Below are positions 12,495 to 50,991 of a stretch of DNA of 64,000 bases, one piece after another. The stretch is from Levilactobacillus lindianensis (GTDB taxonomy: Bacteria; Bacillota; Bacilli; Lactobacillales; Lactobacillaceae). A model generated the notes under the pieces. That model saw only the letters and a program-made list of their open reading frames with translations, was not told where the DNA came from and made no database searches. The stretch is from positions 1 to 64,000 of the forward strand of contig NZ_RHOD01000015.1 in NCBI RefSeq assembly GCF_003946095.1, given 5' to 3'. How positions within the stretch are numbered: the stretch's first letter is position 1; each line of letters opens with the position of its first letter. Made by a program: the position numbers and the translations under genes.

Positions 12495-12683
12495 AATGAC
12501 CGCCTCCTTTGACTAGGCTAAATTGCTTTACAAGTTTAGTCATTTTGAGGGGGAATGTCAATTAAAGCGAGTGGGTGAAGTCTAGGAACGACGGGCGTGG
12601 ACGCCAACTGCTAATATCAAAATCTTTGTGAGGGCACAACGGTTTACTTTCCCATGGAAAACCACTAAAATAAAGGAATAGAA

Positions 12684-12895
12684 ATCACGATAGGAGTAGC
12701 CCCATCGCAGAGAAAAACCGCTAGTGCTGAAACGGTTTTACGGGCGAATTGGATCGGGATTTAGTCATTTAACCGATAATTAATTATCGCGGGGTCCCCG
12801 TTAACGACGAAAGTGGTGGTCAATAGTGACCACAAGTTAGGTGGTACCGCGCAGTAAGCGTCCTATTGGAGTCCGACTCCAATGGGGCGCTTTTT
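12684..12895 (+). promoter_or_regulatory. T-box leader of trpS
   Basis: The conserved T-box core GGTGGTACCGCG lies at 12839-12850. It is preceded by the long stem I region and followed by the terminator GCGTCCTATTGGAG/CTCCAATGGGGCGC with five T (12858-12895). A TGG triplet in GCGAATTGGATCGGG is a plausible tryptophan specifier and matches the downstream gene. Uncharged tRNA-Trp would stabilise the antiterminator and allow trpS expression. Confidence 0.92.
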
Positions 12896-26627: not shown

Positions 26628-26877
26628 GGTCGCCTGCGGCTAGGAAATAATTTTCAATGACGATGGTCGAGCTCTATCGATAATCAGGGTTACTTTTTCG
26701 AGGTTGCCGAATGAGGCAATTGACCTTATATATTTGTATTGTTTCAACTTTTAATGGCTGTAAGTCATCACGAGCAAATTTCGTTTCAGAATCGACGGAC
26801 GTCCCCGGCTAAGGCGTTTTCAAAAAATATCGTTTGTTATTTATTCATGATCGTCAGCCGGGTGGCCGCAGGCGACC
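26628..26877. repeat. 250-bp segment bounded by perfect 13-bp inverted repeats
   Basis: GGTCGCCTGCGGC (26628-26640) and GCCGCAGGCGACC (26865-26877) are exact reverse complements. The segment between them is AT-rich and has no gene. The ends share GCCTGCGGCTAGG with the ends of the structured repeats at 33-48 kb. A miniature mobile element is possible; I see no clear target-site duplication. Confidence 0.6.
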
Positions 26878-33072: not shown

Positions 33073-33255
33073 TGCCTGCGGTGGACAGAGCCGATACCCT
33101 ATGGGGAACGGTCGAAGCCAAAGAGCGGTCTTCAATCTCGTCCTCAAGCCTCACCAAGAGCGTGAGTCTCGAGGGCGCCCCGTGCTGTAAGGCCGGAGAG
33201 TCACCGACCTAACAGCACCGACACAGGGTATCGGCCCTGTCCACCTCCGGCTAAG
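33073..33255 (+). repeat. Structured intergenic element, copy A
   Basis: A 183-bp imperfect palindrome. Outer stem: 33080-33100 pairs with 33225-33245 (21 positions, one mismatch). Inside are hairpin P2a (GAAGCC...GGTCTTC, about 33113-33133), hairpin P2b (CTCAAGCCTCAC...GTGAGTCTCGAG, about 33143-33173), and hairpin P3 (GTGCTGTAAGG...CCTAACAGCAC, 33182-33217). It is about 80% alike in its core to copy C2 on the other strand. No reading frame is supported. It fills the gap between the prs terminator and the next gene. Confidence 0.75.
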
Positions 33256-33350
33256 ATCGACGGACCGGTTGAAGGAGTTTAAACTTGATTTCTGGCTGCC
33301 GGAGGTTAGGAAAGCACGTGTAAATTTGAAATTTGAAGGGAGCAACTGCC

Positions 33351-33710
33351 ATGACAAGTTGGCAGCGATGGACCACGGGGACGTTAGCCGTGGGACTGAT
33401 TGTTGCGTTAGCAATGCGCATTTTGGCACAACCGTTAATGGTTATTGGCAATTTACTTTTCATGGTGGGACTGGCACTGCTGGTCTTGGGGATGATTGGG
33501 ATCTTGGCCAAGGGCCATTTGTTTACCGGGTGGCGTCGGCGACGACGTAAAGGGGACCCGGTAACCAAAGAGGAACGCGAGAAAAAAATTGACGTCCGCC
33601 ACGTGGCGACGGTGAAGAATTCACCGATCGTGGTGAATGGTTTTGCCCGTTATGGGTTGGTTTCTGGTGGGGTCTACGTCGTTATCGGGATTATTTTAAC
33701 ACTGCTATAA
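33351..33710 (+). CDS. DUF3899 membrane protein
   Basis: 119 residues: two hydrophobic segments near the N-terminus (about 10-28 and 33-53), a basic loop GWRRRRRKGD, a polar linker, and a third segment at the C-terminus. The pattern matches the DUF3899 family. The ATG is set by AAGGGAG eight bases upstream. Co-directional with the methyltransferase gene 25 bases downstream. Function unknown. Confidence 0.7.
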   Translation: MTSWQRWTTGTLAVGLIVALAMRILAQPLMVIGNLLFMVGLALLVLGMIGILAKGHLFTGWRRRRRKGDPVTKEEREKKIDVRHVATVKNSPIVVNGFARYGLVSGGVYVVIGIILTLL

Positions 33711-33735
33711 AATTCACTTAGGGGAGCGAATTAAA

Positions 33736-34473
33736 ATGAAAAAAGTGACGTCTGGTATTGATGCGCCCGTAGTTCCAATCGTTTATTCGGTTGCGGCGCT
33801 TTTTTTCTTCAGTAGTTTTTTCTGGGAACGAAGTGCGACGGGGCGATTTTGGGATATCGTGGTTGGCCTGATTTTCGTGATCGGAACTGGAATTTTCCTA
33901 CACACCTCATTACGGGGAAAGAAAATTATCTGGGAACGGTTATTGACTCAGACGCCGATTGACCCGAACGCACAAATCTTAGATTTGGGTTGTGGTCATG
34001 GCGCTGTGTTGGGCCGCGTAGCCCAGGAGTTGTCGGGAACCGGTCATGCCGTGGGCGTCGATCTCTGGCGGTCGCGGGACCAATCACAGAATTCCCAACA
34101 GGCAGCCATGGCGAATATGGCAGCTTTGGGGGTTGCCGATCGCGTCACCTTGGTTACGGCGGATATGGTAGATTTGCCGTATGATCATAACCGTTTTGAT
34201 GTCGTGACCACCAGCTTTGCGGTGCATAACATCAAGCCTCAAGCCAAGCGTGATCAGGCGTTAGAAGAAGCCGTCCGGGTCTTAAAACCGGGTGGCGAAC
34301 TGCTGATCGTGGATACGGAGCATCACCGAAGAGGCTACCAAAACTTTTTAGAGACTGCTGGTTGTCGAGTCTTGGTGTCCAAGTCGGCTGGGTTTGACGG
34401 TTGGTGGACCGGACCTTGGCAAGGGAGTTACGTGATTCGAGCGGTTAAGGGGAAAAACGCGACGATCAAATAA
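33736..34473 (+). CDS. Membrane-associated class I SAM-dependent methyltransferase
   Basis: 245 residues. Two N-terminal hydrophobic segments (about 13-30 and 38-56) precede a methyltransferase domain with motif I ILDLGCGHGAVLG (about 80-92), VTADMVDLP and a motif near FDVVTTSFAVHNI, then RVLKPGGELLIVDTEH. The two-segment anchor plus UbiE-like domain is common in lactobacilli. Substrate unknown. GGGGAGCG precedes the ATG. Confidence 0.85.
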   Translation: MKKVTSGIDAPVVPIVYSVAALFFFSSFFWERSATGRFWDIVVGLIFVIGTGIFLHTSLRGKKIIWERLLTQTPIDPNAQILDLGCGHGAVLGRVAQELSGTGHAVGVDLWRSRDQSQNSQQAAMANMAALGVADRVTLVTADMVDLPYDHNRFDVVTTSFAVHNIKPQAKRDQALEEAVRVLKPGGELLIVDTEHHRRGYQNFLETAGCRVLVSKSAGFDGWWTGPWQGSYVIRAVKGKNATIK

Positions 34474-34492
34474 ATTGTGACCTTAATAAAAC

Positions 34493-34531
34493 AGACGACT
34501 CGCTACCAGAGAAACCGGTAGTGAGTCGTCT
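34493..34531. terminator. Bidirectional terminator
   Basis: A perfect 15-bp stem AGACGACTCGCTACC/GGTAGTGAGTCGTCT (one G-T pair) with a nine-base loop, T-rich on both strands, between convergent genes. Confidence 0.85.
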
Positions 34532-34594
34532 ATTTGTTTAAGTTAAGTGTCTTAAATTTGAGCCTACGGAGGACAGAAATTCAAAACGTTGCGT

Positions 34595-35404
34595 CTAGTC
34601 TAAGACGTACTTATGAATGGCGGCGGCGACACCGTCTTCAACATTACTGAGTGTCATGACTTGAGCCGCTTCTTTAACTTCGTCAATAGCATTGCCCATG
34701 GCAACTCCGAGACCGGCGTATTCGATCATGGTCAGATCGTTTCCTTGGTCGCCGATGGCCATGACTTCGTCGGCACTAAAGCCTAATTTAGTGGCGAGTT
34801 CCCCTAAAGTGTTCCCTTTGCTGGCTTGTTTGTTCATGATTTCAACAAAGAATGGCGTACTTTGAACGACATAGAACCGGTCTCTAAACTCTTGGGGAAT
34901 CTCGGCATTGACGCGGTCGATAATGTCCTTGTGATCGACAAACATGGCCTTAGAGATCGTCAGGTCACGGCTGATTTCGCCAACAGCACGGTAACGAATG
35001 AGCATCTTCACGAGCATACTTTCGGCAATCGTGTAGGCTGAGATGTTCTTGTTGGGCGTGTAGATGTAGTCAGGCGTTTCGATTTGAAAGTGTACCTGGA
35101 GCTTCCGGGCGAGGGCTTCCAAGTCGATGAAGTCGTTGTAACTGAGGGAATGGTTGGTCATCATTTTTCCAGAAACGGTCTGGGAGACCGACCCGTTGTA
35201 AGTGATGGCGTATTGGTCGTCACCACTCAGTTCCAAGGCATCGAGGTAAGGTTGTACCCCGGTCAGTGGTCGACCGGTACATAGAACGACCTTGATGCCC
35301 TTGGCCGTAGCGGCTTGAACCGCGGCGATGGTGGCCGGGGCCAATTCATTCTTTTCGTTGAGTAAGGTGCCGTCAATATCAATTGCAATCATTTTAATTG
35401 TCAT
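34595..35404 (-). CDS. Cof-type HAD-IIB phosphatase (first of tandem pair)
   Basis: 269 residues. HAD motif [13 protein letters not shown] at the N-terminus, motif [13 protein letters not shown], and motif [24 protein letters not shown]. Cof-type sugar-phosphate or flavin-phosphate phosphatases share this layout. Start at MTIKMIAID, which matches the neighbour; a TTG four codons earlier is too close to AAGGAG. It is the downstream twin of the next gene and has the same length. Confidence 0.88.
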
Positions 35405-35431
35405 GTTTTTCGTCAATTCTCCTTCATGTCG

Positions 35432-36241
35432 TTAGGGTAGGGCGTAGCGTTGGATTGCGGTGGCCACGCCATCGGCGGTGTTGGGGGTCGTCACCGTATC
35501 GGCGACGGCCTTCACAGCTTCATTGGCGTTTCCCATGGCCACTCCGAGGCCGGCATAGGTCAGCATCGGGAGATCGTTGTTTTGATCGCCGATCGCCATG
35601 ACTTCGGCGGCGGTGAGCCCCAGGGTCGTGGCGAGCTCGGCCAGCGTGTTGCCCTTGCTGACGTTTTTGCTGAGGACTTCAATAAAGTAAGGCATGGTGC
35701 GAACCACGTAGAACCGATCGTAAATTTCACGGGGTAATTGGTCTTCGACCTTATCGAGAACGGGGGCGTTGTCGATGAAGATTGCCGTGGGCATCAAAAG
35801 ATCGCGGGGCATGTCCGACGCCGCCCGGTAGCGGAGGGGGAGATGGACGAAGTGACTCTCGGTGACCGTGTGCGGGCTGATGTCTTGATCGGCGGTGTAG
35901 ATGTGGTCGGGGGTGAGGACTTGAAAGTGTACCTGAAACTTCCGGGCGAGGGCTTCCAAGTCAACGTAATCGTCATAGGTGAGTGAATGCTTCGTCAGTA
36001 CCTTCCCGGAGACGGTTTCCGCCAATGATCCGTTGTAGGTGATGACGTATTGGTCGTCGCCACTCAGGCCCAGAGCTTCTAAGTAAGGTGTGACGCCGGT
36101 GAGGGGACGACCGGTACAGAGAACCACCTTGATGCCACGATCACGGGCTGCTTGAATCGCCTGGATAGTACCGGAGGTCAGTTCATCATTTTCATTGAGA
36201 AGGGTGCCGTCGATATCTACGGCAATGAGTTTAATGGTCAT
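35432..36241 (-). CDS. Cof-type HAD-IIB phosphatase (second of tandem pair)
   Basis: 269 residues, collinear with the 34595-35404 protein from end to end (for example [24 protein letters not shown] in both). HAD motifs DIDGTLLNE and [22 protein letters not shown]. The two genes are tandem duplicates that have diverged most in the cap domain (middle third), which sets substrate choice in this family. The start overlaps the end of the HD-domain gene by 11 bases, so all three are one operon. Confidence 0.88.
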   Translation of the reverse strand: MTIKLIAVDIDGTLLNENDELTSGTIQAIQAARDRGIKVVLCTGRPLTGVTPYLEALGLSGDDQYVITYNGSLAETVSGKVLTKHSLTYDDYVDLEALARKFQVHFQVLTPDHIYTADQDISPHTVTESHFVHLPLRYRAASDMPRDLLMPTAIFIDNAPVLDKVEDQLPREIYDRFYVVRTMPYFIEVLSKNVSKGNTLAELATTLGLTAAEVMAIGDQNNDLPMLTYAGLGVAMGNANEAVKAVADTVTTPNTADGVATAIQRYALP

Positions 36242-37610
36242 GGTGATCAGTCTCCTTCGGCTGAATCAACTGGTTGTTTTGAATATACTGCTTGAAGTCA
36301 TCGTAAATGGGCTGGAATAGCTCGGGATCGTGACTATCCGGGCTGAGCATTTCCTTAGGAAAGAAGAAGCGTTGGTCACCGGAGAACTTTCCGCGAATGG
36401 CGTTGACCAAATCGGAAACTGTCGAGAGTTCTCGCAGGCTACCATCCGGTTCTTGAAGTTCAATCTGCGTTAGGGGATGTGTGACGCGAGGGTCATAGGC
36501 ATCATCATAAGGCAAATCGTAACTGTTATCGGTGGCCGTGTAGTAGTCGATGTTGAACCCAGCGGAGGCGATGAGGTCGCGAAGATGTGGGATCAAGTCT
36601 TGCGTCTTTGCGGAGAAGATCGCGCTCTTCAGAGGCTTCCGATCGAGGAAGCGGTGGGCCAAGTCGGCCAGAATCTCGTCATCGGAGTCGCGCCAATGAA
36701 TGAAGTAGGTGGTAAGGACGCCATCGTCGAGGTTCAAGTAGTCCTTGAGATCAAATTCGTGGTTGAAGAAGGGCAATAGGAGATGGGGCACGAAGCTCTC
36801 ATCCTCGTTCCCGTTTTGGTAGAGCTCATTGGCTCTAGCCAGCAAGTGATCCAAAATGACTTCCATGGCCCGAGAAACCGGGTGGAAATAGACCTGTTGA
36901 TACATTTGGAAGCGACTGATGATGTAGTCTTCGACGGCGTGCATGCCGTTCATGGCAAAGGCAATGCCGTCCTTATAAGGACGCATCACTCGCAGAATTC
37001 GGGTAATATCAAAGGTTCCGTATTCGGTTCCCGTGAAGTAGGCGTCTCGTAGGAGGTAATCCATGCGGTCGGCATCAATTTGACTGGAGATCATCTGAAC
37101 CACTTGGGGGTTCGGGTGCGTCTTCTGGATGACGCTCGCCACTTCGGCCGGGAAGGTTGGGCTGACGCGCCGCAGCACTTGATTAACCTCGGTGGTTGGT
37201 GACGTCAGGATCTCAGCGGTAATGGCCTCGTGATCCGTGTGAAAGATGTGTTCAAAGGCGTGAGAGTAGGGACCGTGACCAATGTCGTGTAGCAGAGCGG
37301 CACATAAGGCCGTCAGTCGATACCGGTCATCCCAACCGCCATCACCTGGAATTTCCATGGGATAGTTACGTTGGAAGTTATCACAGATTTGGCGGGTGAC
37401 CTCGTAGACCCCCAGTGAGTGGGTGAAACGCGAGTGTTCGGCACCGTGGAAGATGAGTGAAGCCGTTCCAAGTTGCTTGATGCGCCGGAGCCGTTGAAAT
37501 TCACGGGTGTTGATTAGGTCTAAAATAACTTGATGTTGAACGTAAATATAGTTGTGAACCGGGTCGCGAAAGACTTTTTCTCGGGGTAGCCGAGCAGTTG
37601 CGTAACTCAC
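36231..37610 (-). CDS. HD-domain phosphohydrolase (YwfO-like)
   Basis: 459 residues. Metal ligands of the HD superfamily: His59/His64 in EHSRFTHSLGVYE and HD at residues 108-109 in LLHDIGHGPYSHAFEH, with a later Asp in SSQIDADRMDYLLRDA. The length and these blocks match the dGTPase-like YwfO group, which hydrolyses nucleoside triphosphates in Gram-positives. First gene of the operon, before the two HAD phosphatases. Confidence 0.88.
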   Translation of the reverse strand: MSYATARLPREKVFRDPVHNYIYVQHQVILDLINTREFQRLRRIKQLGTASLIFHGAEHSRFTHSLGVYEVTRQICDNFQRNYPMEIPGDGGWDDRYRLTALCAALLHDIGHGPYSHAFEHIFHTDHEAITAEILTSPTTEVNQVLRRVSPTFPAEVASVIQKTHPNPQVVQMISSQIDADRMDYLLRDAYFTGTEYGTFDITRILRVMRPYKDGIAFAMNGMHAVEDYIISRFQMYQQVYFHPVSRAMEVILDHLLARANELYQNGNEDESFVPHLLLPFFNHEFDLKDYLNLDDGVLTTYFIHWRDSDDEILADLAHRFLDRKPLKSAIFSAKTQDLIPHLRDLIASAGFNIDYYTATDNSYDLPYDDAYDPRVTHPLTQIELQEPDGSLRELSTVSDLVNAIRGKFSGDQRFFFPKEMLSPDSHDPELFQPIYDDFKQYIQNNQLIQPKETDHHDH

Positions 37611-37638
37611 AGTGATTCCTCCTTCTTAATTTGAACAT

Positions 37639-38460
37639 TTAAATAGGTTGGCGGCGTGCCATCAGGGCGGTTTCGTGGGCTAGCCGGTCCTGAAACCAGG
37701 GGGTTGCCATGGCCGCGGTTAATTTGCCTTGGCCGATGTCGAGACCCGCCGAGGTGCAAGCCGCGAGGATCCGTTGCCGGGCGTCTGCTACGGTGAGCGG
37801 GCGATCCAAGAGATTCGCCACGGTGGTCATGACCGCAGGATCGACGTCGGGAAAGTTCCAATCGTTGGGGTGATCTCCTAAACCCGCGCGGTAAAAGTCG
37901 CGAACCAGGCTGCCGCGCGTGAGCTGATCACCGGTGACGCTGAGGTAAAGCATGGTGACCATCGCGTGTGGACTGCGGCGTTGCGAAATACCGGCAATCT
38001 TACGGTTGTTGACACTGAGATCGTAGTCGCCTGGACAATAGGACCGGGTGATCTCATGGTGAGCCAGGTCGAGCTCCGGCCAGGTCGCCGCCATCAAGTC
38101 CAACATCTGGTCGTAAGCCGCCGCCACGCTAATGGCGGGGGTCGTCAGGGGTTGAAACAAGGACACGTTCAGAATGCCACCGTCGGCTACGACGGCCAAT
38201 CCGCCAGAATTTCGGAGAACATGGTCGTAGCCGTAGCCGTGAACGGCACTGACAGCGTCTGTAAGGTGTGGTAGCCGCTTATCCTTAATCCCCATGATGA
38301 CGGTTGGTGGCATGGTCCAGAAGTGCAATACGGGCTGTTTAAGCCGGGGGATTAGATCCAGCAGGGCATTGGTGTACCCAAAGGCTTGATTCTTCTGCTC
38401 GGCCGCAATGGCGGTCGTCAGCGTCTGAATCCGGTCAGTGGCTAAATTAAGTGGTGCCAA
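37639..38460 (-). CDS. LipL-like octanoyl/lipoyl transferase
   Basis: 273 residues of the biotin/lipoate ligase fold. RNSGGLAVVADGGILNVSL (about 83-101) is the core substrate loop. Cys142 in SYCPGDYDLS and the Lys in NNRKIAGISQRR match the octanoyl-[GcvH] transferase LipL of B. subtilis, where the equivalent Cys is the acyl carrier. It would move octanoyl or lipoyl groups between lipoyl domains. The start is TTG, seven bases after AAAGGGGG. The stop is 28 bases from the HD-domain start. Confidence 0.8.
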   Translation of the reverse strand: MAPLNLATDRIQTLTTAIAAEQKNQAFGYTNALLDLIPRLKQPVLHFWTMPPTVIMGIKDKRLPHLTDAVSAVHGYGYDHVLRNSGGLAVVADGGILNVSLFQPLTTPAISVAAAYDQMLDLMAATWPELDLAHHEITRSYCPGDYDLSVNNRKIAGISQRRSPHAMVTMLYLSVTGDQLTRGSLVRDFYRAGLGDHPNDWNFPDVDPAVMTTVANLLDRPLTVADARQRILAACTSAGLDIGQGKLTAAMATPWFQDRLAHETALMARRQPI

Positions 38461-38809
38461 GAGACGTCCCCCTTTCAGTCGTTTAGATGCAATGTTTTCA
38501 TTATACTAGAAAACTTAGACCCCGTCATGGTTGGGGGTGTAGTGGCTGTTTGAGTGAGCCGGATCACTTAGATTTGATTTCGATGTGTACGTATGACGTT
38601 CGGTAGTTGTTGTGAATGATAAGATCCATTGGCAAATAATATTAGTTTGATGATTACAGGAGACATTTAAAATTATCTTGACTGCTGGATCTTAGCCGGA
38701 GGTGGGTAGGGATTCTCAAAGAACTTGGTCTTAAAGTATTAAAGAATAGGTTTTCCAAGAAAAATGAACTATAATTAACGCAGACAATTCACGGAAAGGG
38801 AGTGTGCAG
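38461..38809. other. Divergent intergenic region
   Basis: 349 bases between the LipL-like gene (minus) and the DUF1934 gene (plus). No gene is seen. A TATAAT at 38770-38775 is a likely -10 box for the plus strand. The minus strand at 38692-38706 reads CCACCTCCGGCTAAG, identical to the right end of repeat copy A, a solitary end without the body of the element. Confidence 0.55.
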
Positions 38810-39250
38810 ATGGATCAGTTATCAACGGGGGTGCCCGTGATGATTCACTTGGAAACGCATATTAAACAGGATGGAGACGTTTCCGACTACCGCTTAGATG
38901 TGGAAGGTCAGCTCGTTCAGATGGGCTTAAACCTCTATCTTCGCTACCTGGAACCCGATCAAGAGACGGGAAAGGAAACGCCCGTGACGATGAAGTTCAC
39001 GCCAGAAGGTGAGGTCCACCTGACGCGAAACGCGGAGGCTGAACTGCGGTTACACTTCATCAGTGGCAAACGGGTCACGGCGCGCTACAAGACGCCTTAT
39101 GGGATCATGCCAATCGAGACCGTGACGCCATACCTGGAGACCAGTTTTCAGGAGCGACCATTCAGCGGAAACGTCAAGATTGACTACCTGCTCTATGCTG
39201 GTGAAGAATTAGTCGGGAACTACAAGATTCGATTGCAATTTACGGCATAA
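38810..39250 (+). CDS. DUF1934 (YwiB-like) protein
   Basis: 146 residues, a compact all-beta protein with alternating strands (HLETHIKQDG.. VTMKFTPEGEVHLTR.. KVKIDYLLYAGEELVGNYKI-type ending), matching DUF1934, a calycin-like fold. It commonly lies directly before rpoE in lactobacilli. GGGAG is eight bases before ATG 38810; an earlier GTG two codons upstream is less well spaced. Function unknown. Confidence 0.85.
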   Translation: MDQLSTGVPVMIHLETHIKQDGDVSDYRLDVEGQLVQMGLNLYLRYLEPDQETGKETPVTMKFTPEGEVHLTRNAEAELRLHFISGKRVTARYKTPYGIMPIETVTPYLETSFQERPFSGNVKIDYLLYAGEELVGNYKIRLQFTA

Positions 39251-39294
39251 ACGAGTATCATATTTCGTAGACTGTGGAAAGGACGTGCACCAGT

Positions 39295-39945
39295 TTGGAA
39301 TTAAAAGTCTTTGAGGGCCAGAATAAAAAGGAATTATCAATGATCGAAGTTGCTCACGCCATTTTGTCTCAACACGGTGACGTGATGGCATTTGCCGACT
39401 TAGCAAACGCCGTGCAAGCCTATTTGGGCGACAGTGACGCAGAAGTTCGTAACCGGCTGTCCCAATTCTATACGGATTTAAATGTCGATGGTAGTTTCAT
39501 TTCTCTGGGTGATAACCTCTGGGGACTGCGAACTTGGTATCCGTTTGAATCCATCGATGAAGCGACGGTTCACGCTGAGGAAGATGAAGATCAACCTAAG
39601 CGTAAGAAGCGTAAGAAGGTTAACGCCTTCCTCGCTGATACGACCGATGACGACGACGTAATCGATTACGATGACGATGATCCAGAAGATGACGACACTT
39701 CGTACGCCAGTGATGACGACGATGATGACGATTCAACCGGCTCAACGCCTGACCTGGGCAAGTTACAGACCGGCCTAGGCATCGATGACGATGACGAAGA
39801 AGATGCTTCGGAAGACATCCCAGATGGTATCGAAGACCAGCTTTCTCAGATGGAAGCCCCGGACGACGATGACACCGACAATCTCGACTTCTCTGATGAC
39901 GATGATGAAGACGACGATGACGAAGAAGACAGCGATCAAAAGTAA
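39295..39945 (+). CDS. rpoE: RNA polymerase delta subunit
   Basis: 216 residues. The N-terminal HARE-HTH domain (ELSMIEVAHAILSQHGDVMAFADLANAV, about residues 11-85) is followed by a Lys-rich joint (PKRKKRKK) and a C-terminal half made almost wholly of Asp and Glu, as typical for delta. Delta increases RNA polymerase recycling and responsiveness to initiating NTP concentration. The TTG start lies 11 bases after AAAGGA and gives the expected MELKVFEGQ beginning. The pyrG promoter follows at once. Confidence 0.93.
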   Translation: MELKVFEGQNKKELSMIEVAHAILSQHGDVMAFADLANAVQAYLGDSDAEVRNRLSQFYTDLNVDGSFISLGDNLWGLRTWYPFESIDEATVHAEEDEDQPKRKKRKKVNAFLADTTDDDDVIDYDDDDPEDDDTSYASDDDDDDDSTGSTPDLGKLQTGLGIDDDDEEDASEDIPDGIEDQLSQMEAPDDDDTDNLDFSDDDDEDDDDEEDSDQK

Positions 39946-39960
39946 ATTGAAAATGTTTGC

Positions 39961-39989
39961 TTGACCTACAGTCGAAAAACAGTTAGTAT
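39961..39989 (+). promoter_or_regulatory. pyrG promoter
   Basis: TTGACC (39961-39966), 17 bases, TAGTAT (39984-39989), then seven bases to a GGGC start site at 39997. Confidence 0.85.
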
Positions 39990-39996
39990 GTTTTTT

Positions 39997-40073
39997 GGGC
40001 TCCTTGCTACTTGTAGTGAGGACAACTGAACGGTGAAGTAGCTCCCTATTCCGAATGAATAGGGAGTTTTTTT
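39997..40073 (+). promoter_or_regulatory. CTP-sensing pyrG leader (reiterative-transcription attenuator)
   Basis: The predicted transcript begins GGGCTCC. A terminator sits 45 bases later: CTCCCTATT (40042-40050) with AATAGGGAG (40058-40066) and seven T. In B. subtilis and L. lactis low CTP causes slippage that adds extra G at the GGGC start; these G pair with the CUCCC arm and block termination. All three parts (GGGC at +1, pyrimidine-rich 5' arm GCTCCC, terminator) are present here, so the same control is likely. Confidence 0.85.
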
Positions 40074-40077
40074 ATAG

Positions 40078-41721
<1,644 letters not shown>

Positions 41722-41802
41722 TTTTCTAAGGTCGTTTAAGTTGGCCGCCTGCGGCAAGGACTGTACTTTACCATAACTAAAGATAACTGAATTGAAATAC
41801 TG

Positions 41803-41851
41803 AACGGGTAAGCATCCCTGGCTGAGGCCAAGTGGTGCTTACCCGTTTTAT
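41803..41851 (+). terminator. Terminator after pyrG
   Basis: AACGGGTAAGCA pairs perfectly with TGCTTACCCGTT around a 21-base loop, followed by TTTATATT. Between it and pyrG, 41741-41755 holds TTGGCCGCCTGCGGC, a solitary terminal motif of the structured repeats. Confidence 0.8.
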
Positions 41852-41995
41852 ATTGTCGAGTGATAAGCAGCCTAATTAGTTAATTGGTGTGTCTGAGTTG
41901 TAGCTCGAGATCGCTAGGATTCAAATATGCTGGAGGCAGATCTCAATCTGACTTAACTGTGTTGGTATCGATAGTTGTTGCCATAATGTTACTAT

Positions 41996-42182
41996 CTAAG
42001 CCGTGAGGCCGGCAGATCGGGGCTCAGGCGCATCGTTCTCCTTAGTCGGCGAGTGGTTTTCTCGTCGGCTTAGGAGAAAACCAAGCTTGAAGACTCGGGA
42101 TTTTCGAGGCTTCAAGTTGTGTTCGCACCGTTCCAGCCCCGAACTGCCGGCCGGTAAGGCGAGTCGTACCACAACAGTTGCC
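41996..42182 (-). repeat. Structured intergenic element, copy D
   Basis: Outer stem 42007-42024 with 42135-42152 (18 positions, one mismatch). Hairpin 42036-42053/42061-42078 and hairpin CTTGAAGACTCG/CGAGGCTTCAAG (about 42087-42116) lie inside. It is about 85% identical to copy E at 45.7 kb, and most stem differences are paired changes. Read on the minus strand it carries the same TTGAAGCCTCG...CGAGTCTTCAA hairpin and TAAG...CTAA hairpin as copies A, B and C2. Confidence 0.75.
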
Positions 42183-42291
42183 TAGTAGTGGACTAATGTA
42201 GCAAAGCAATCCTAGTGTTAATTCAAATTTGAAGGCAAATTAAAACGCCTGTCAGCACTCCCAAACAGGAATGGCGACAGGCATTAATCTT

Positions 42292-42729
42292 CTATTTTGC
42301 TGGAACGTTGGGATCGTCGATGATGTTGGTTACCGCGGCTTGGATCGCGGGGATCAACGGGCTATTGGCATCGATGCCCGTTTGGTCGAAGCGGGCTTGC
42401 CACCAGCTACGACGAATATCTTGAACCTGGGCCACAATGTCTTGGCCGGCCGGGGTGAGACTGAGGAGCTGCGTCTTGCCACTCCCGGCAGTTTTGGTTA
42501 GGTAGCCGAGGGCTTGAATCTTGTTGACTTCGCGGGTGGTGAGGCCCTTGTCAATGACTAGAGTCTTGGCAACTTGACTTTGGTTGATGGCCGGGTGCTC
42601 GTGAACTGTCAGTAGGACGCAGGCGGCCGTTGGATTCAGCCCCAAGTCCTTAAATATCGGGCTGGTGTCCTTGTAGTATTTACGGTGTAGGATAGAAATA
42701 TCTTGAGCCAGATAACCTAAATCGATCAT
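42292..42729 (-). CDS. MarR-family transcriptional regulator
   Basis: 145 residues with a winged helix: LNPTAACVLLTVHEHPAINQSQVAKTLVIDKGLTTREVNKIQALGYLTKTAG (about 31-82). It is divergent from alsS and shares a 120-base control region holding two palindromes, so it is the likely regulator of alsS-alsD and of itself. AAAGGAG precedes the ATG. The ligand is unknown. Confidence 0.88.
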   Translation of the reverse strand: MIDLGYLAQDISILHRKYYKDTSPIFKDLGLNPTAACVLLTVHEHPAINQSQVAKTLVIDKGLTTREVNKIQALGYLTKTAGSGKTQLLSLTPAGQDIVAQVQDIRRSWWQARFDQTGIDANSPLIPAIQAAVTNIIDDPNVPAK

Positions 42730-42763
42730 GGCGCACTCCTTTCTGTTGTGAAAAAGGTTCTAT

Positions 42764-42815
42764 GTTGACAAAACAACTTAAGGCTATTATGATGATTCTA
42801 AGTTGACTTGTCAAC
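42764..42815. promoter_or_regulatory. Overlapping divergent promoters and two MarR-type operators
   Basis: Plus strand: TTGACA (42765-42770), 17 bases, TATGAT (42788-42793) for alsS. Minus strand: TTGACA (42809-42814), 17 bases, CATAAT (42786-42791) for the regulator. The two -10 boxes overlap. Palindromes GTTGACTTGTCAAC (42802-42815) and GTTGACAAAACAAC (42764-42777) cover the -35 boxes, one at each end, so bound regulator would silence both genes. Confidence 0.75.
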
Positions 42816-42852
42816 ACAATTAAACTAAAAAATGAAAACGGGGGACCCACCG

Positions 42853-44535
42853 ATGACAAAAACCAAGACTGGCGCACAAGCGTTAATTCAAAGCATGATT
42901 AATCAGGGGATCAAGTACGTGTTCGGTATTCCGGGCGCGAAGGTTGACCAACTTTTCGAAGGGCTGGAGTACAGCAAGGACCCACGAGCACCAAAGGTCA
43001 TTGTGACCCGGCACGAACAGAATGCCGCGTTGATTGCGTCCGGGATTGGTCGGATTACTGGGGAACCTGGCGTAGTTGCAACCACTTCTGGTCCTGGGGT
43101 TTCCAACTTAACGACGAGTCTAATTACGGCGACCGCAGAAGGCGATCCCGTCATTGCTTTGGGGGGACAGGTTCCCCAAGATGACATTGGCCGCTTGACT
43201 CACCAGAGTATTCCCAGCAAGGAACTCCTGAGCTCGGCCACTAAGTCTAGTGTCGAAGTTCAGAACGCCAACAGTCTCTCTGAAGCCTTTGCTAACGCCT
43301 ACCAAACGTCGCGGGCACCTAAGGCGGGGGCGACATTCATCTCCTTACCACAAAACGTGTTAAACGGTCAGGTCGACCGACCAGAAATTAAGACCGTGCC
43401 AACCATTGACCAAGGGGTGGCCGATCCCGCCACGATCAGTGCGCTGGTCGATAAGATGACACACGCCAAGCTACCGGTGATTCTGGCCGGCATGCGGGCC
43501 TCAGCCAGTGACGTGACGACCGCGATTCGTGAGTTGTTAGGCCACGCTGATATTCCCGTCGTTGAAACGTTCCAGGGAGCCGGTGTCGTATCCCGTAACC
43601 TAGTTCGCAACTACTTTGGTCGAGTGGGTCTTTTCCGTAATCAAATCGGTGATAACCTCTTAAAGGAAAGTGACTTGGTGATCACGGTGGGTTACGATCC
43701 CGTGGAATACGAAGCGCGGATCTGGAACGCCGACCGGACTGGTGAAGTGGTCAGTCTCGACAGTGTGGCGCCAGAAATCACCACCGATTATCAACCAGAA
43801 TTAGTGATTCACGCCGACATTGCCAAAACCCTACACGCATTGGGCCAGGCCTTGCCAAGCGACTGGGCCTTATCCAATGAGGTTCAGACAGAATTGACGG
43901 ATTTAGGGGACAAATTGGCGGCTCAAGCAGAGGCCCCAACCCCTGACGATGACCATGGGATTCATCCATTGGCCATCATCCAAGCTTTACAGGATCAAGT
44001 GAATGATGAGACGACCGTGACGGTGGATGTTGGAAGTTTCTATATTTGGATGGCGCGTTACTTCCGGAGTTACCAACCTCGGCACCTGTTGTTCAGTAAC
44101 GGGATGCAGACGTTGGGCGTTGCCTTTCCATGGGCGATTGCGGCCGCACTCGAACGACCTGGTCAACCGATCGTTTCGGTTGCTGGTGACGGTGGCTTCC
44201 TGTTCTCCAGCCAAGAACTCGAGACCGCTGTCCGGTTGAATTTGCCAATCGTGCAGATTATTTGGACCGATGGCTACTACGACATGGTGCGTTTCCAAGA
44301 AATTGCGAAATACGGTCACGATGCCGCGGTTAGTTTTGGCCCCGTGGATTACGTGAAGTATGCCGAAAGCTTTGGCGCTACTGGCTTACGCGTGGACCAC
44401 GCCGCCGATCTGGCAAGCACTCTGAGTGAAGCCTTTACGACAGCCGCCAACGGGCCAGTCGTGGTGGAAATTCCCGTGGATTACCGCGATAATTTACAAT
44501 TAAAGTCCTTATTACTCGAAGATGTCTTAAGCTAA
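42853..44535 (+). CDS. alsS: Acetolactate synthase, catabolic type
   Basis: 560 residues, ThDP-dependent. N-terminal GIKYVFGIPGAKVDQLFEGL and the ThDP Glu in TRHEQNAALIASG; C-terminal ThDP/Mg motif GDGGFLFSSQELETAVRLNLPIVQIIW. The fused short form without a regulatory subunit, together with alsD downstream, identifies the AlsS enzyme of the acetoin pathway (two pyruvate to acetolactate). GGGGGA precedes the chosen ATG; an earlier ATG lacks a site. Confidence 0.95.
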   Translation: MTKTKTGAQALIQSMINQGIKYVFGIPGAKVDQLFEGLEYSKDPRAPKVIVTRHEQNAALIASGIGRITGEPGVVATTSGPGVSNLTTSLITATAEGDPVIALGGQVPQDDIGRLTHQSIPSKELLSSATKSSVEVQNANSLSEAFANAYQTSRAPKAGATFISLPQNVLNGQVDRPEIKTVPTIDQGVADPATISALVDKMTHAKLPVILAGMRASASDVTTAIRELLGHADIPVVETFQGAGVVSRNLVRNYFGRVGLFRNQIGDNLLKESDLVITVGYDPVEYEARIWNADRTGEVVSLDSVAPEITTDYQPELVIHADIAKTLHALGQALPSDWALSNEVQTELTDLGDKLAAQAEAPTPDDDHGIHPLAIIQALQDQVNDETTVTVDVGSFYIWMARYFRSYQPRHLLFSNGMQTLGVAFPWAIAAALERPGQPIVSVAGDGGFLFSSQELETAVRLNLPIVQIIWTDGYYDMVRFQEIAKYGHDAAVSFGPVDYVKYAESFGATGLRVDHAADLASTLSEAFTTAANGPVVVEIPVDYRDNLQLKSLLLEDVLS

Positions 44536-44550
44536 AAGGAAGTTATGACG

Positions 44551-45261
44551 ATGAAGACAACAACCTTATATCAACACGGAACGCTGGCCTTGTTAGTGCC
44601 AGGATTATTGACGGGAACCCTACCAATGCGGACCTTATTGGCCCACGGGGATACCGGAATTGGGACGGGTGAGGGCCTGGATGGTGAGCTGATTATCTTA
44701 GACGGCAACCCATATCAGGTTAACAGTGAGGGGAAAGTAACCGTGGTCGGTGACGACTTCACGTTGCCATTTGCCAACAGCCACTTCGCCGACTATCGGC
44801 CATTACTTACGATGGAAAATGCCACCCGTGAAGAACTTCATGACCAAGTGTTAGGCCTGACGCACGGCGCCAACACCTTCTTCTCAATTAGGGTCACGGG
44901 GACCTTTACAGATGTGAAGACCCGGGCGGTAGCCAAGTCCAGTCGGCCATTCAAGTCTCTGGCAGAGACAGCTGAAAATCAGAGTATCTTCACTCGTGAC
45001 ACCGTGGAAGGGACCTTGTTGGGATACTACTCTCCACAGATCTTTGACGGGGTCGCGGTCGGGGGTTATCACGACCACTTTCTGGATGACGCCCACAGCT
45101 TTGGTGGTCATCTCCTGGGCTTTGGTCGCGTGACTGGTGAGGTTCAGGTTCAGATTTTCAATACCTTGGAACAACATCTCCCCGTTGCCGATACCGATTA
45201 CCAGCAACATGATTTCTCACAAGATGACATCATGGGCGATCTGCATCAGGCCGAGGGTTAA
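44551..45261 (+). CDS. alsD: Acetolactate decarboxylase
   Basis: 236 residues. Zinc ligands in the segment VAVGGYHDHFLDDAHSFGGHLLGF and the N-terminal LYQHGTLALLVPGLLTGTLP match bacterial AlsD/BudA. It turns acetolactate into acetoin. Two ATGs are possible; the second is nine bases from AAGGA, the first only three. It is 15 bases after alsS, so it is the second gene of the operon. Confidence 0.93.
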   Translation: MKTTTLYQHGTLALLVPGLLTGTLPMRTLLAHGDTGIGTGEGLDGELIILDGNPYQVNSEGKVTVVGDDFTLPFANSHFADYRPLLTMENATREELHDQVLGLTHGANTFFSIRVTGTFTDVKTRAVAKSSRPFKSLAETAENQSIFTRDTVEGTLLGYYSPQIFDGVAVGGYHDHFLDDAHSFGGHLLGFGRVTGEVQVQIFNTLEQHLPVADTDYQQHDFSQDDIMGDLHQAEG

Positions 45262-45285
45262 ACAAAACGAATTGAACTCAAAACT

Positions 45286-45314
45286 CGTAATCCTAAATGG
45301 GTTGCGATTTTTTT
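45286..45314 (+). terminator. Terminator after alsD
   Basis: CGTAATCC (45286-45293) pairs with GGGTTGCG (45299-45306), with wobble pairs, followed by a T run. Confidence 0.6.
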
Positions 45315-45325
45315 TATGTTCTAAA

Positions 45326-45494
45326 TTGGCCGCCTGCTGTGGGGACGCTTCAGCCTGAAACCCGGGCTTCTCGCTCGATTTGAAGCCCCGCCAGAGGCGC
45401 GGGTCTTCAAAGTCGCCCGTGGTGTAAGGCCGAGAAGGGCACTCGGTCTAACGCCACCGCCACGGCCGGCTCATCCCTGGCCTCCTCCGGCTAG
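45326..45494 (+). repeat. Structured intergenic element, copy B
   Basis: It begins TTGGCCGCCTGC and ends CCTCCTCCGGCTAGG. P2b is strong: TTTGAAG at 45379-45385 pairs with CTTCAAA at 45405-45411, followed inward by the constant C-T mismatch and a CCC/GGG stem. P3: GTGGTGTAAGGCCGAG with CTCGGTCTAACGCCAC (45419-45457). The outer stem is weaker than in copy A. It lies directly downstream of the alsD terminator. Confidence 0.7.
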
Positions 45495-45710
45495 GTTAGT
45501 ACTTGACCATAACGAAGTTGGCCTTTCTATATCCACCTTGTGGTGACGTTCAAAATATAGTTGTCCGGCTGATTCGAACACCTCAGCATCTGTTTTTTTT
45601 GGATGCACCGTCAGTCGAAAAAGGAAAAGTGTTTTGATTGGACAGGTTAACGACACTGTTTCTTACTAATTTCAATGGTGTCGACAAGAGTTGACTTGGT
45701 GTTTCCACCT

Positions 45711-45897
45711 AAGCCGTGAGGCCGACAGATAGGGGCTCAGGCGCGTCGTTCTCCTTAGTCAGTGAGTGAACTTCTCACTGGCTTAGGAGAAAACCAAGCT
45801 TGGAGACTCGTGGGTTTCGAGGCTTCAAGTTGTGTTCGCACCGTTCCAGCCCCTATCTGTCGGCCGGTAAGGCGTCCAGTACCACCACGGTTGCCGA
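45711..45897 (-). repeat. Structured intergenic element, copy E
   Basis: Near-twin of copy D. The outer stem GGCCGACAGATAGGGGCT (45722-45739) pairs perfectly with 45850-45867. Hairpin 45751-45768/45776-45793 and the CTTGGAGACTCG/CGAGGCTTCAAG hairpin follow. Compared with copy D, an outer-stem C-G to A-T change and several others keep pairing. It lies 64 bases from the end of the ABC transporter gene. Confidence 0.75.
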
Positions 45898-45960
45898 TCC
45901 CCAAAATAAAAGGCCCGCCAACTCGAAAGTTAGTGGACCAATGTGGTTATTTAAAAATAC

Positions 45961-48291
45961 TTATTCAGAACGTAAAGCCGTAGCGGCGTCCTTCTTCGCA
46001 GCCATCCGTGCTGGGATGTGGCCACCCAACATGGTCAGAACCGTACTGATGATAATCAGGACAATCCCGTGGACTGGGTTGAGGTGGGCGACATTGCTCA
46101 GGTCGGTAATGTTCTGTAGAACGACGTTGATTGGGAACGTCAGGAGCCAAGCAATGACGACCCCTAAGACCCCGGAACCAACCCCAAGAATAAACGTTTC
46201 GGCATCAAAGACACGGGTGATATCTTTCTTCCGTGCCCCTAAGGCCTTCAGAATCCCGATTTCCTTTGTCCGTTCGAGCACTGAGGTGTAGGTAATGATG
46301 GCAATCATAATCATACTGGTTACCAGTGAAATACCAGCAAAGGCAACGAGGACGTAGGTAATCGCGTCCATCAGACCACCGGTCAGGTCGGATACGGTAC
46401 CGGCCATATCGGTGTAGATGACCTTGTCAGACTTGGACTTCCCCTTGTTGTATTTATCGAGGTAAGAGAGAACCTTGTCCTTATTCTTAAAGGTATTCGG
46501 GTAGATTAAGATGCTGGCAGGTGTGGTTGATCCACCCAGGTAGCTGACCAGAGACTTCTTCGTGGTGCTGTCGACACTTTGGCCGGTCCTCACGTTGTCA
46601 TTGGCCTTCTTCTGAGCCTTCACAATTTGAGAGCCCTTGTTCTTCTGGATGATGTCTTGGGTGAGCTTGTCACTGTAGGCAACTCCGGAAGCCAACACAT
46701 TTTCGGAAGATTTGGACTTCACTTTCACGATCCCGGCAACCTTCAGCGAGGTGTTATTGCTGTTGTTGTACAGGGAGTTCGTGGCTTTGTTAGGGATGTA
46801 ATTTCCGGTGGGAAGACTCTGGTAGTAGTCGTTGTTGTTGACTACTTTAATGGTTGTTCCGACAATTTTGTTGTAGCTAAACTTTTGATTGGCCTTCACC
46901 GAATACCCTAAGTTTTTCAGGGCATTGATGTTGGTTGATCCATCGCGATCGACGATTAAGATGACATCCGTGGCCTTCTTGGGGTAGCTTCCGGAAACCA
47001 GCTTATAGTGTTTCTTTAGGAAGTTCAAACCACCATCGTTGGCACTAGGATAAACGGAACCGCCGACCCCCGTTGAAGCGGCCATGGCTGCTTGCATAGC
47101 ACTGGAGTCATTGTTGCTGTCGGCATTGGAGAAGGAGACCGTCTTGGTCTTGCCATCGACTTGCCGCAGTAAGTTCATTCCAGTGGAGTAGGTGTAGGTG
47201 ACGTTCTTGCTTAATTTTGGATCGAGTTTTTTAACGTAGTTTAAGTAATCCTTGGTAAGCTTGTTGGTATGAGTTGCCTTGTCTTGGTCACTGACCTTGG
47301 CCGTGACTTGCTTGGCGTTGCTCGACTTGACCTTGTCATTACTGTTTTGAGCGCCCGTGGTGCTCGTGGCAGTCTGTGAAATAGTGACAGGGAACTGCGC
47401 CAGTGTGTTGGCTTGGGTCTTATTGATTTGCGTTTGGAAACCGTTGGACAACGCTAAGACCACGGCGATCCCAATGATCCCGATACTGGAAGCGAAGGCC
47501 GTTAACGCAGTCCGACCTTTCTTGGTCCGGATGTTGTTAAATGACAGCTTCAGAGCCGTCCAGAAGGTCATTTTGGTCTTCTTTAATTTGAACTGTTCGG
47601 CATCGGCATGATCGTCGTAAGGGTTCGAGTCGTGCTGAATCTTTCCATCGGCAAACTCGATGATCCGGTCCGCGTACTGGTGAGCCAAGTCGGGGTTATG
47701 GGTGACCATGATGACCAGGCGTTCTGCGGAAAGTTCTTTGATCAGCTGCATGATTTCATCGCTGGTCTCGGTATCGAGGGCCCCGGTGGGTTCGTCACAC
47801 AGGAGAATTTTGGGTTCGTTGGCAATGGCCCGTGCAATGGCAACCCGCTGGAGTTGTCCGCCGGAAAGTTGGTTGGGCTTCTTGTTAATGTGGGGCGTCA
47901 GGCCAACCCGGTCGAGGGCCTTTAAGGCTTTCTGCTTTTTCTCAGCGTTGGGGACACCACTCAGTGTCATCCCCATTTCCACGTTATCAAGGATGCTTAA
48001 ATGACCAATGATGTTGTAACTTTGGAAAATGAAACCGACGGAGTTGTTACGATAGGCATCCCAGTCGGAAGCAGAGAAGTCCTTGGTGGATTTCCCTTCA
48101 ATGGCGAGATCACCGGAGTCGTAGATGTCCAGGCCACCGATACCATTTAACATGGTGGTCTTCCCGGAACCACTGGGTCCGAGAATCGCGACGAACTCTT
48201 GAGAACGGAAGGCGACGGAGACGTCGTCGAGAGCTTTGGTGACGGAATCCCCCACGTAGTAATACTTTTTAATATGTTTGAGTTCCAGCAT
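45961..48291 (-). CDS. MacB-like ABC transporter, fused ATPase and FtsX permease
   Basis: 776 residues. The N-terminal ATPase has Walker [10 protein letters not shown] (about 38-46), signature [14 protein letters not shown], Walker [11 protein letters not shown] and HisLoop MVTHNPDLA. One hydrophobic segment follows (about 262-285). Then comes a long extracellular domain of about 350 residues, rich in Asn, Ser and Lys, and three more segments typical of FtsX/MacB permeases ([45 protein letters not shown] is the conserved inner turn). Such proteins export peptides or sense cell-envelope stress. The start at [11 protein letters not shown] follows AAAGGATT. The divergent TetR gene may control it. 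Confidence 0.88.
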
Positions 48292-48361
48292 TCGAAATAA
48301 TCCTTTCATTATTTGACTAGTGTTGGTGTTACAGGGCTTTTTCTGGTAAAATTGTCATTAC

Positions 48362-48408
48362 TGCAACACTGTGTCTTATATCATAAAAATTGTACTGCCA
48401 GTTGGCAA
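48362..48408 (-). promoter_or_regulatory. Promoter and possible operator of the ABC transporter gene
   Basis: On the minus strand TTGCCA (48403-48408), 17 bases, TATGAT (48380-48385). The start region carries TGTTGCA (minus strand), a half site that is repeated at 48438-48463. Confidence 0.55.
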
Positions 48409-48437
48409 CCGCCAATGTCGACAGAACTGTTGTGAAT

Positions 48438-48463
48438 GCAACACATTTCAACAGGGTGTTGCA
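48438..48463. promoter_or_regulatory. Inverted repeat, candidate TetR operator
   Basis: TGCAACAC (48438-48445) and GTGTTGCA (48456-48463) are perfect reverse complements 10 bases apart, upstream of the -35 box of the ABC gene. A third TGCAACAC lies at 48362-48369. The divergent TetR-family gene is the natural candidate to bind. Confidence 0.5.
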
Positions 48464-48564
48464 AGCATGGCGGTCGCCTGGCTAACTGTCGGCTATTACT
48501 TTACCAGACCCGCCACCTAACGGCACGTAATCTCACCTGAAAGTTTTCGTGATCGCTGGTGATG

Positions 48565-48670
48565 GCTCGGGTCTCCATCCTGTGGGGCACGGCCGAAGCC
48601 CAAAGGCGGTCTTCGAACTCGTTTTGAACCCCCAAGACGGTGGTCTTCAAAGCGTCCGGTGCTGTGGTTG
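48565..48670 (+). repeat. Structured intergenic element, copy C1 (truncated)
   Basis: CCATCCTGTGGGGC (48576-48589), then P2a GAAGCCCAAAGGCGGTCTTC and P2b TTGAACCCCC...GGTCTTCAA, as in copies A and C2. It breaks off after GTGCTGTGG, before the P3 hairpin can close. Confidence 0.65.
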
Positions 48671-48739
48671 GGTTGGTTATGGGAATTTTAGAATATACGT
48701 GTCGTCAGGGAAGACGTTCCGATAAGTTAGCCGTGGGTG

Positions 48740-48910
48740 ATTAGGGCAGAATCCTGTGTCGGTGGTGTTAGCCCGGTGTCCTTCCGGGGTTACAGCACGG
48801 GACGTCTGCAAGACCCACGGTTTGGGTGGGGCTTGGAGGCGAGGTTGAAGACCGCTTTTTGGCTTCGACCGGGCCCCACAGGATGGCGTCCCTGACCACC
48901 CGCGGCGGCA
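48740..48910 (-). repeat. Structured intergenic element, copy C2
   Basis: On the minus strand it follows copy A closely: CCATCCTGTGGGGC, CGAAGCC...GCGGTCTTCAA, CAAGCCCCAC...GTGGGTCTTG, GTGCTGTAAC...CTAACACCAC, then CACAGGAT closing the outer stem with ATCCTGTG. With C1 it makes a long inverted pair around 48660-48740 (48576-48589 and 48874-48887 are exact complements). It ends 25 bases before the TetR start codon. Confidence 0.7.
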
Positions 48911-50923: not shown

Positions 50924-50991
50924 TCAACGGTTGACGATTAAATCAATCTCTGGTTCAGTCAATGGGCCAGGGCAAAGGAGCGAAATACATT

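Follow-up and report, generated by a model that had tools for sequence, protein, structure and literature searches.

What keeps a family of intergenic sequences in one elaborate shape, the work of an RNA or the recognition of the DNA itself, is the question raised by a 64,000-nucleotide stretch of the Levilactobacillus lindianensis genome (assembly GCF_003946095.1, contig NZ_RHOD01000015.1, positions 1 to 64,000; hereafter the window). An original prediction had named six copies of a structured element (A, B, C1, C2, D and E) as single elements and proposed selection for a fold, belonging either to a small RNA or leader or to a recognised DNA like BOX or REP/BIME. All six copies were found at the places named, but most of them proved to be halves of inverted pairs. 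We propose that they probably belong to a family of non-autonomous, mobile intergenic palindromic elements, arranged in doublets like those of REPINs and built from multi-hairpin arms.

The element is about 170 nt long and takes a branched fold, its arms measuring 151-181 bp, each bearing two or three side hairpins and an outer stem that forms an imperfect GCC...GGC terminal inverted repeat; relative G015 has a longer flanking inverted repeat, by eye. The predicted common plan of an outer stem, one or two P2 hairpins and a P3 hairpin was recovered: type A (copies A and C2) has the outer stem, two P2 and P3, and type D (copies D and E) one P2 and P3. Five copies were folded, C1 being left out, and compared with 200 dinucleotide shuffles each; the energy z-scores were −5.6 (A), −7.2 (D), −3.6 (B), −6.6 (E) and −3.7 (C2), and a single shuffle of B (1/200) folded as well as the native sequence, with 0/200 for each of the others. 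The C and T that face each other in P2 (C76 and T94 of the first row), already noted as a fixed mismatch, did not vary in any of the 18 A and A' copies aligned. P3 carries A.A and C.A mismatches in most copies, as judged by eye.

Covariation was assessed by pair counts on alignments of copies from the same genome, set against shuffled and slid controls. Both sides had changed in 16 of 42 pairs in alignment A3 (13 copies; 6.3 in shuffles) and in 15 of 37 pairs in A4 (9 copies; 9.2 in shuffles), values reached by none of 500 shuffles in either case. When the partner was slid by 1-3 columns, the cells that pair fell from 96.7% (A3) and 97.9% (A4) to 31-53%, a comparison that favours the structures used, as these are RNAalifold consensus folds of the same alignments. 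One of the five measures on A4, further pair types, was not above the shuffles (24 vs 23.1; 219/500). The copies thus covary in pairs, as the compensatory changes described around the P2 mismatch had suggested, and because the covariation exceeds its controls, selection for the fold is supported.

Five main subtypes were distinguished (A, A', D, D' and X), and the pairs of their stems indicate which strand folds. Among stem pairs common to the consensus folds of both strands, A.C exceeded G.T on the top strand in 5/5 subtypes (G.T vs A.C: 113 vs 163, 28 vs 74, 11 vs 23, 8 vs 38 and 8 vs 27), and A.C led in 92 pair columns against 34 led by G.T, with 144 ties. On few copies two small subtypes gave no lead, whereas on larger sets the lead appeared in all five; counted per sequence the bias of A' is weak (60 vs 47, 35 ties), and since the copies share ancestry the significance of the bias is a guide only. 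A top-strand A.C reads as G.U or G.T on the complement, which makes the bottom strand the likelier one to fold and be selected, and this holds for RNA and single-stranded DNA alike.

The element is abundant, with copies by the dozen in a genome. BLAST of the L. lindianensis genome found 20 places with copy A and 12 with copy D. Covariance models built on bottom-strand cores, R1 from 13 A copies and R2 from 9 D copies, found at least 67 and at least 64 places, respectively, which merge to at least 73 copies; the merge drew on 66 of the 67 rows for R1 and 21 of the 64 for R2, the other R2 rows overlapping R1 by eye, and 73 is a lower bound because R1 scored 150 of 743 and R2 150 of 236 first-look candidates. 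With nhmmer, 78 copies were counted in 1.08 of the 2.33 Mb. Under strict filters R1 matched 34 of 201 Lactobacillaceae genomes in 10 of 40 genera and R2 matched 52 of 201 in 11 of 40, and L. paucivorans DSM 22467 alone gave 69 R1 matches in 355 kb. The covariance-model search suggested with the original prediction has yielded further copies both in the genome and in its relatives. In an order-wide sample, R1 matches at 1e-6 occurred in 5 of 295 genomes, all of them Lactobacillaceae. A search of genome contigs with the A' pattern returned at least 113 stretches; among the 80 matches listed, 79 are Levilactobacillus records and one is a metagenome-assembled genome named uncultured Lactobacillus. 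Subtype abundance is strongly unlike between species among the matches listed. A 47 kb block of the L. lindianensis genome (C1:31009-78253, C1 here being a genome coordinate label and not the copy) is rich in copies, with pairs every 3-4 kb in much of it. It has 97.7% identity to L. paucivorans, while other mapped blocks mostly have 86-95% and two smaller ones 97-99%, so that this block was probably exchanged recently.

Neighbouring copies follow a rule of orientation. In the L. lindianensis genome, 22 of 23 neighbours within 600 bp have their top strands directed inward, one is in tandem and none points outward. In a wider set of 109 stretches (1.48 Mb), in which nhmmer counted 308 copies, 94 of the 103 close neighbours face inward, 8 are in tandem and 1 points outward; this set was partly gathered with the A' pattern and includes overlapping L. 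paucivorans records and blocks common to two genomes, so that some records are counted twice. A gap of more than 30 bp separates 90 of the 94 inward pairs, and the few others overlap or nearly touch. In the window the pairs are B/E and C1/C2, and A and D each have a partner stub. The sole same-strand close neighbours found in the genome are two tandem D'-type copies (C1:84315-84597), and three copies in a row, two of them weak, were seen in L. yonginensis L274.

Some combinations of arms within a pair are preferred. With labels permuted over 63 pairs outside the L. lindianensis genome, A stood with X in 8 pairs (1.0 expected; 0/5000 permutations) and A' with D in 13 (7.4 expected; 4/5000), while other combinations, such as A'/A' (21 vs 19.9) and D'/D' (1 vs 0.2; 1048/5000), were not above chance. 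The spacers between the arms (90 compared; median 202 bp, 41% GC) run mostly to about 400 bp and are mostly unrelated in sequence. Cross-matches occurred at sites that look orthologous, meaning the same place in L. lindianensis and L. paucivorans or a presumed equivalence between species; the exceptions were a 51-nt stretch shared at 78% by two L. humaensis spacers, and matches of 25 nt adjoining an arm. Two spacers searched in whole genomes were found at their own place only, or with one match in L. humaensis at 77%, besides a conserved end that adjoins the arm. We therefore rejected a composite doublet with a mobile interior. One facing pair about 1.9 kb apart (C1:34542-36757) encloses a 480-aa gene, aldehyde dehydrogenase-like by eye, and resembles a composite element.

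Comparison of orthologous places revealed considerable turnover. In blocks more than 99% alike between L. lindianensis and L. paucivorans, copies are kept at 11 of 11 mapped sites, whereas outside near-identical blocks a copy present in L. paucivorans is absent from L. lindianensis at 18 of 36 distinct sites (from 20 of 40 rows, four duplicate rows having been removed by hand). The aldC-ABC interval spans about 96 bp in one relative (G053), with no copy, and in others contains copies variously placed about the native terminator, as read by eye. At a further orthologous site, compared in 13 relatives fetched of 35 searched, neither model detects a copy in 8 of the 13, and the other 5 have copies whose R1 and R2 scores differ; in relative G468 an A' copy lies, by eye, inside the remnant of a D-like copy. 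The place itself in L. lindianensis looks like a remnant and not a never-filled site. Empty places and differing subtypes at one orthologous site are the best evidence for mobility. Copies also decay to stubs.

The reading that we consider probable starts from the architecture seen: each arm forms an imperfect palindrome, about 150-180 bp long, whose two or three side hairpins bear recurrent mismatches, and two such arms, in some preferred subtype combinations, lie inverted and inward-facing with a short spacer between them that has a sequence of its own. The folded bottom strand, as single-stranded DNA or RNA, would be recognised by a trans-acting enzyme, so that selection on mobility and not host benefit would keep the shape. 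The doublet would be the working unit, and singles would mostly be decayed doublets. The half of the original prediction that invoked mobile or recognised DNA thus fits better, because copies are dispersed, their flanks are mostly unrelated, they are present or absent at orthologous sites and they form inverted doublets; its RNA or leader half is less favoured.

Several observations weigh against such mobility. Spacers that are mostly unique are unexpected for a simple two-ended transposon. At no fewer than five of the copy-less sites in L. lindianensis, read by eye, a stub or an inner deletion was seen, and many of the differences between genomes are therefore losses and not gains. The two L. 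paucivorans copies that are most alike despite unrelated flanks are 98.9% identical to each other and 93% to each L. lindianensis orthologue; as both sites are also occupied in L. lindianensis, this points to conversion and not transposition, and we have withdrawn this near-identical pair as proof of transposition. Two L. lindianensis copies are 98.7% alike, the conversion test having covered the L. paucivorans pair only. Direct repeats were seen at single sites, inconsistently over copies, and no target duplication was established. Finally, no mobilising enzyme was found, either by a search for Y1_Tnp (PF01797) or among open reading frames between widely spaced facing copies as inspected by eye. 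The domain is present in 7 of 18 Lactobacillaceae genomes searched and absent from 11, including L. paucivorans, and a Y1/RAYT mobiliser was accordingly rejected as the regular partner. The open reading frames enclosed by facing copies 400-3500 bp apart included no transposase recognisable by eye, in part of the genomes and with no family search. A phage or plasmid origin was likewise rejected: neither plasmids (blastn with A and D) nor phages (blastn with A) gave a match, nor did viral contigs searched with the A' pattern, in sets that may omit records close to the L. lindianensis genome. It is conceivable, though we put it forward tentatively, that a host-encoded enzyme other than Y1/RAYT recognises the branched, mismatch-marked fold of one DNA strand, or of its RNA, where two subtype-matched arms stand inverted, and that it carries along or captures whatever DNA lies between, which would give unique spacers and amount to a new transposition system of Lactobacillaceae.

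The strand bias and the pairing rule could also be accounted for if the pairs were small-RNA genes, with divergent promoters in the spacer and each arm transcribed outward on the bottom strand into a structured RNA. Inward top strands are divergent bottom strands, so the fixed pairing would be explained, and the lead of bottom-strand G.U noted above agrees with an RNA. Immediately upstream of the 5' end of the bottom strand, A' copies (n=92) moreover show a weak motif, about 22-27 nt long, and nothing further out; the type A outer consensus (n=1) was not used. Beyond this motif, however, no promoter block was noticed in the spacers, with no promoter scan run, and copies differ between species at one site and are often lost. 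We regard such genes as unlikely.

Rather improbable, too, is a role as host-useful punctuation, the pairs being kept as insulators, terminators or sites for nucleoid proteins. Convergent genes flank a raised share of facing pairs (37 of 84, against 200 of 1128 adjacent open reading frame pairs under simple calling), and several pairs adjoin terminator-like sequences by eye; yet 47 of the 84 lie in tandem or divergent contexts, sister species have no copies at the corresponding place, and any insertion that avoids promoters would yield the same enrichment. Gene orientation was also rejected as the cause of the pairing, because copies face inward in tandem and divergent contexts as well.

That the copies are old and immobile, with gene conversion among residents the sole means by which their sequences spread, is quite improbable. 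In its favour, 11 of the 21 L. paucivorans copies compared are closer to a paralogue than to the L. lindianensis orthologue (best of many paralogues, hence biased upward) and copy A has 71% identity to its orthologue within flanks 93% identical, but different types occupy, in different species, a site empty elsewhere, nested copy included, and subtype abundance differs greatly among species. Homogenisation of copies between sites, as judged from these comparisons, is supported but not proven.

The features of the family in the window are given in Table 1. The window also holds remains of further copies that had been overlooked, namely three stubs and probably a fourth. Copy B, aligned to its L. 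paucivorans orthologue, shows 29 gap positions inside the element.

Table 1. Copies, hairpins, spacer and stubs of the family in the window.
Feature	Position	Strand	Basis or remark
Probable solo stub, of the form seen at 41743	26628-26646	+	sequence only
Copy A, type A (outer stem, two P2 hairpins, P3)	33074-33251	+	covariance search, folding, alignment
P2a hairpin of copy A	33114-33133	+	sequence
P2b hairpin of copy A, with C-facing-T mismatch	33145-33171	+	mismatch columns invariant in alignment
P3 hairpin of copy A	33182-33218	+	sequence
Stub, inverted partner of copy A	33291-33310	-	by eye; full-length partner at orthologous place in L. paucivorans
Stub of another copy	34562-34576	-	by eye; full-length copy at orthologous place in L. 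paucivorans
Stub, left partner of copy D	41743-41761	+	full-length A'-type copy in L. paucivorans, 10 N in assembly
Copy D, type D (one P2, P3)	42000-42161	-	covariance search, folding
P3 hairpin of copy D	42036-42078	-	sequence
P2 hairpin of copy D	42086-42117	-	sequence
Copy B, type A', left half of pair B/E, shortened 5' arm	45328-45491	+	covariance search, folding
Spacer of pair B/E	45492-45712		single place in this genome (45495-45705 searched)
Copy E, type D, right half of pair B/E	45713-45874	-	covariance search, folding
Copy C1, truncated, left half of pair C1/C2	48559-48665	+	covariance search, nhmmer extent
Copy C2, type A, right half of pair C1/C2	48730-48906	-	covariance search, folding

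Elsewhere in the window, a T-box leader match (12674-12868) scored 80.4 bits, below the gathering score of 93, and a weak match to the L31-Firmicutes ribosomal protein leader (50948-50980; 28.9 bits vs 33.3) lies just before a 93-aa open reading frame at 50962. Acidic-codon repeats occur at 39658-39941, near the 3' end of the open reading frame 39274-39945. Two adjacent minus-strand genes at 34595-36241 each match the L. paucivorans orthologue of the other, with DNA identities of about 67-69%, and are likely a tandem duplication.

Among systems that resemble the family in one respect or another, BIMEs are built from short REPs without a multi-hairpin arm, BOX elements are modular (boxA-boxB-boxC), and integron attC sites, which come to mind solely for the strand-specific fold, combine a single folded strand with extrahelical bases and a conserved cleavage triplet. 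The closest likeness, as far as the portions of the published accounts used here go, is to the REPINs of Pseudomonas fluorescens, extragenic palindromes in inverted doublets around a spacer, with hairpins predicted in single-stranded DNA or mRNA; REP singlets are held to be remains of doublets, and a value of 93% of 430 REP doublets can be read as the inverted share (PMC3116915). Both traits recur here, in the inward-facing doublets and in singles that look like remains. REPs, however, are RAYT (Y1)-linked and defined as palindromes of 20-40 bp with one end tagged GTAG or CGTC (PMC3733652), in contrast to the long multi-hairpin arms of the present family, which lacks a consistent Y1 gene, often joins two subtypes in a pair and has spacers mostly to about 400 bp. 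With two defining REPIN features failing, the family was not filed as REPIN. Enterobacterial BIMEs share with it palindromic repeats at regular spacing and in alternating orientation (PMC2817692). BOX, RUP and SPRITE of Streptococcus pneumoniae are likewise structured repeats between the genes of a low-GC Gram-positive, where they cluster and lie inserted in each other (PMC10969869, PMC2267715); the relevant passages mention no strict inverted pairing such as is found here, a distinction drawn by description and not by sequence. Like prokaryotic miniature inverted-repeat transposable elements (PMC10969869), the family is small, non-coding and hairpin-forming with terminal inverted repeats, but it is branched, with recurrent mismatches, and neither a parent insertion sequence nor a target duplication was established. 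The Lac-1 stem-loop family of L. johnsonii, listed as 231, 34(6), class G (PMC2267715), is another repeated structured family in a lactobacillus, compared by description and not by sequence.

Rfam gave no match at gathering score over the copies; the sole match below threshold, mir-5615 over copy E (23.8 bits vs 82, E 3), was taken as chance. Literature searches aimed at the family returned no description of it among the matches listed, as judged by titles and the starts of abstracts. Both results agree with the earlier view that this is not a named family; it seems to be small mobile DNA of a kind not described before, carried by Levilactobacillus and related lactic acid bacteria. If so, a single unrecorded structured family would account for much of the repeated DNA between genes in several Lactobacillaceae genera, and REPIN-like doublets would exist without RAYT. 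The copies would offer a natural set for finding the mobilising enzyme and for studying the loss of long palindromes in Gram-positives, and their recognition would help to clean up RNA and leader predictions in food bacteria.

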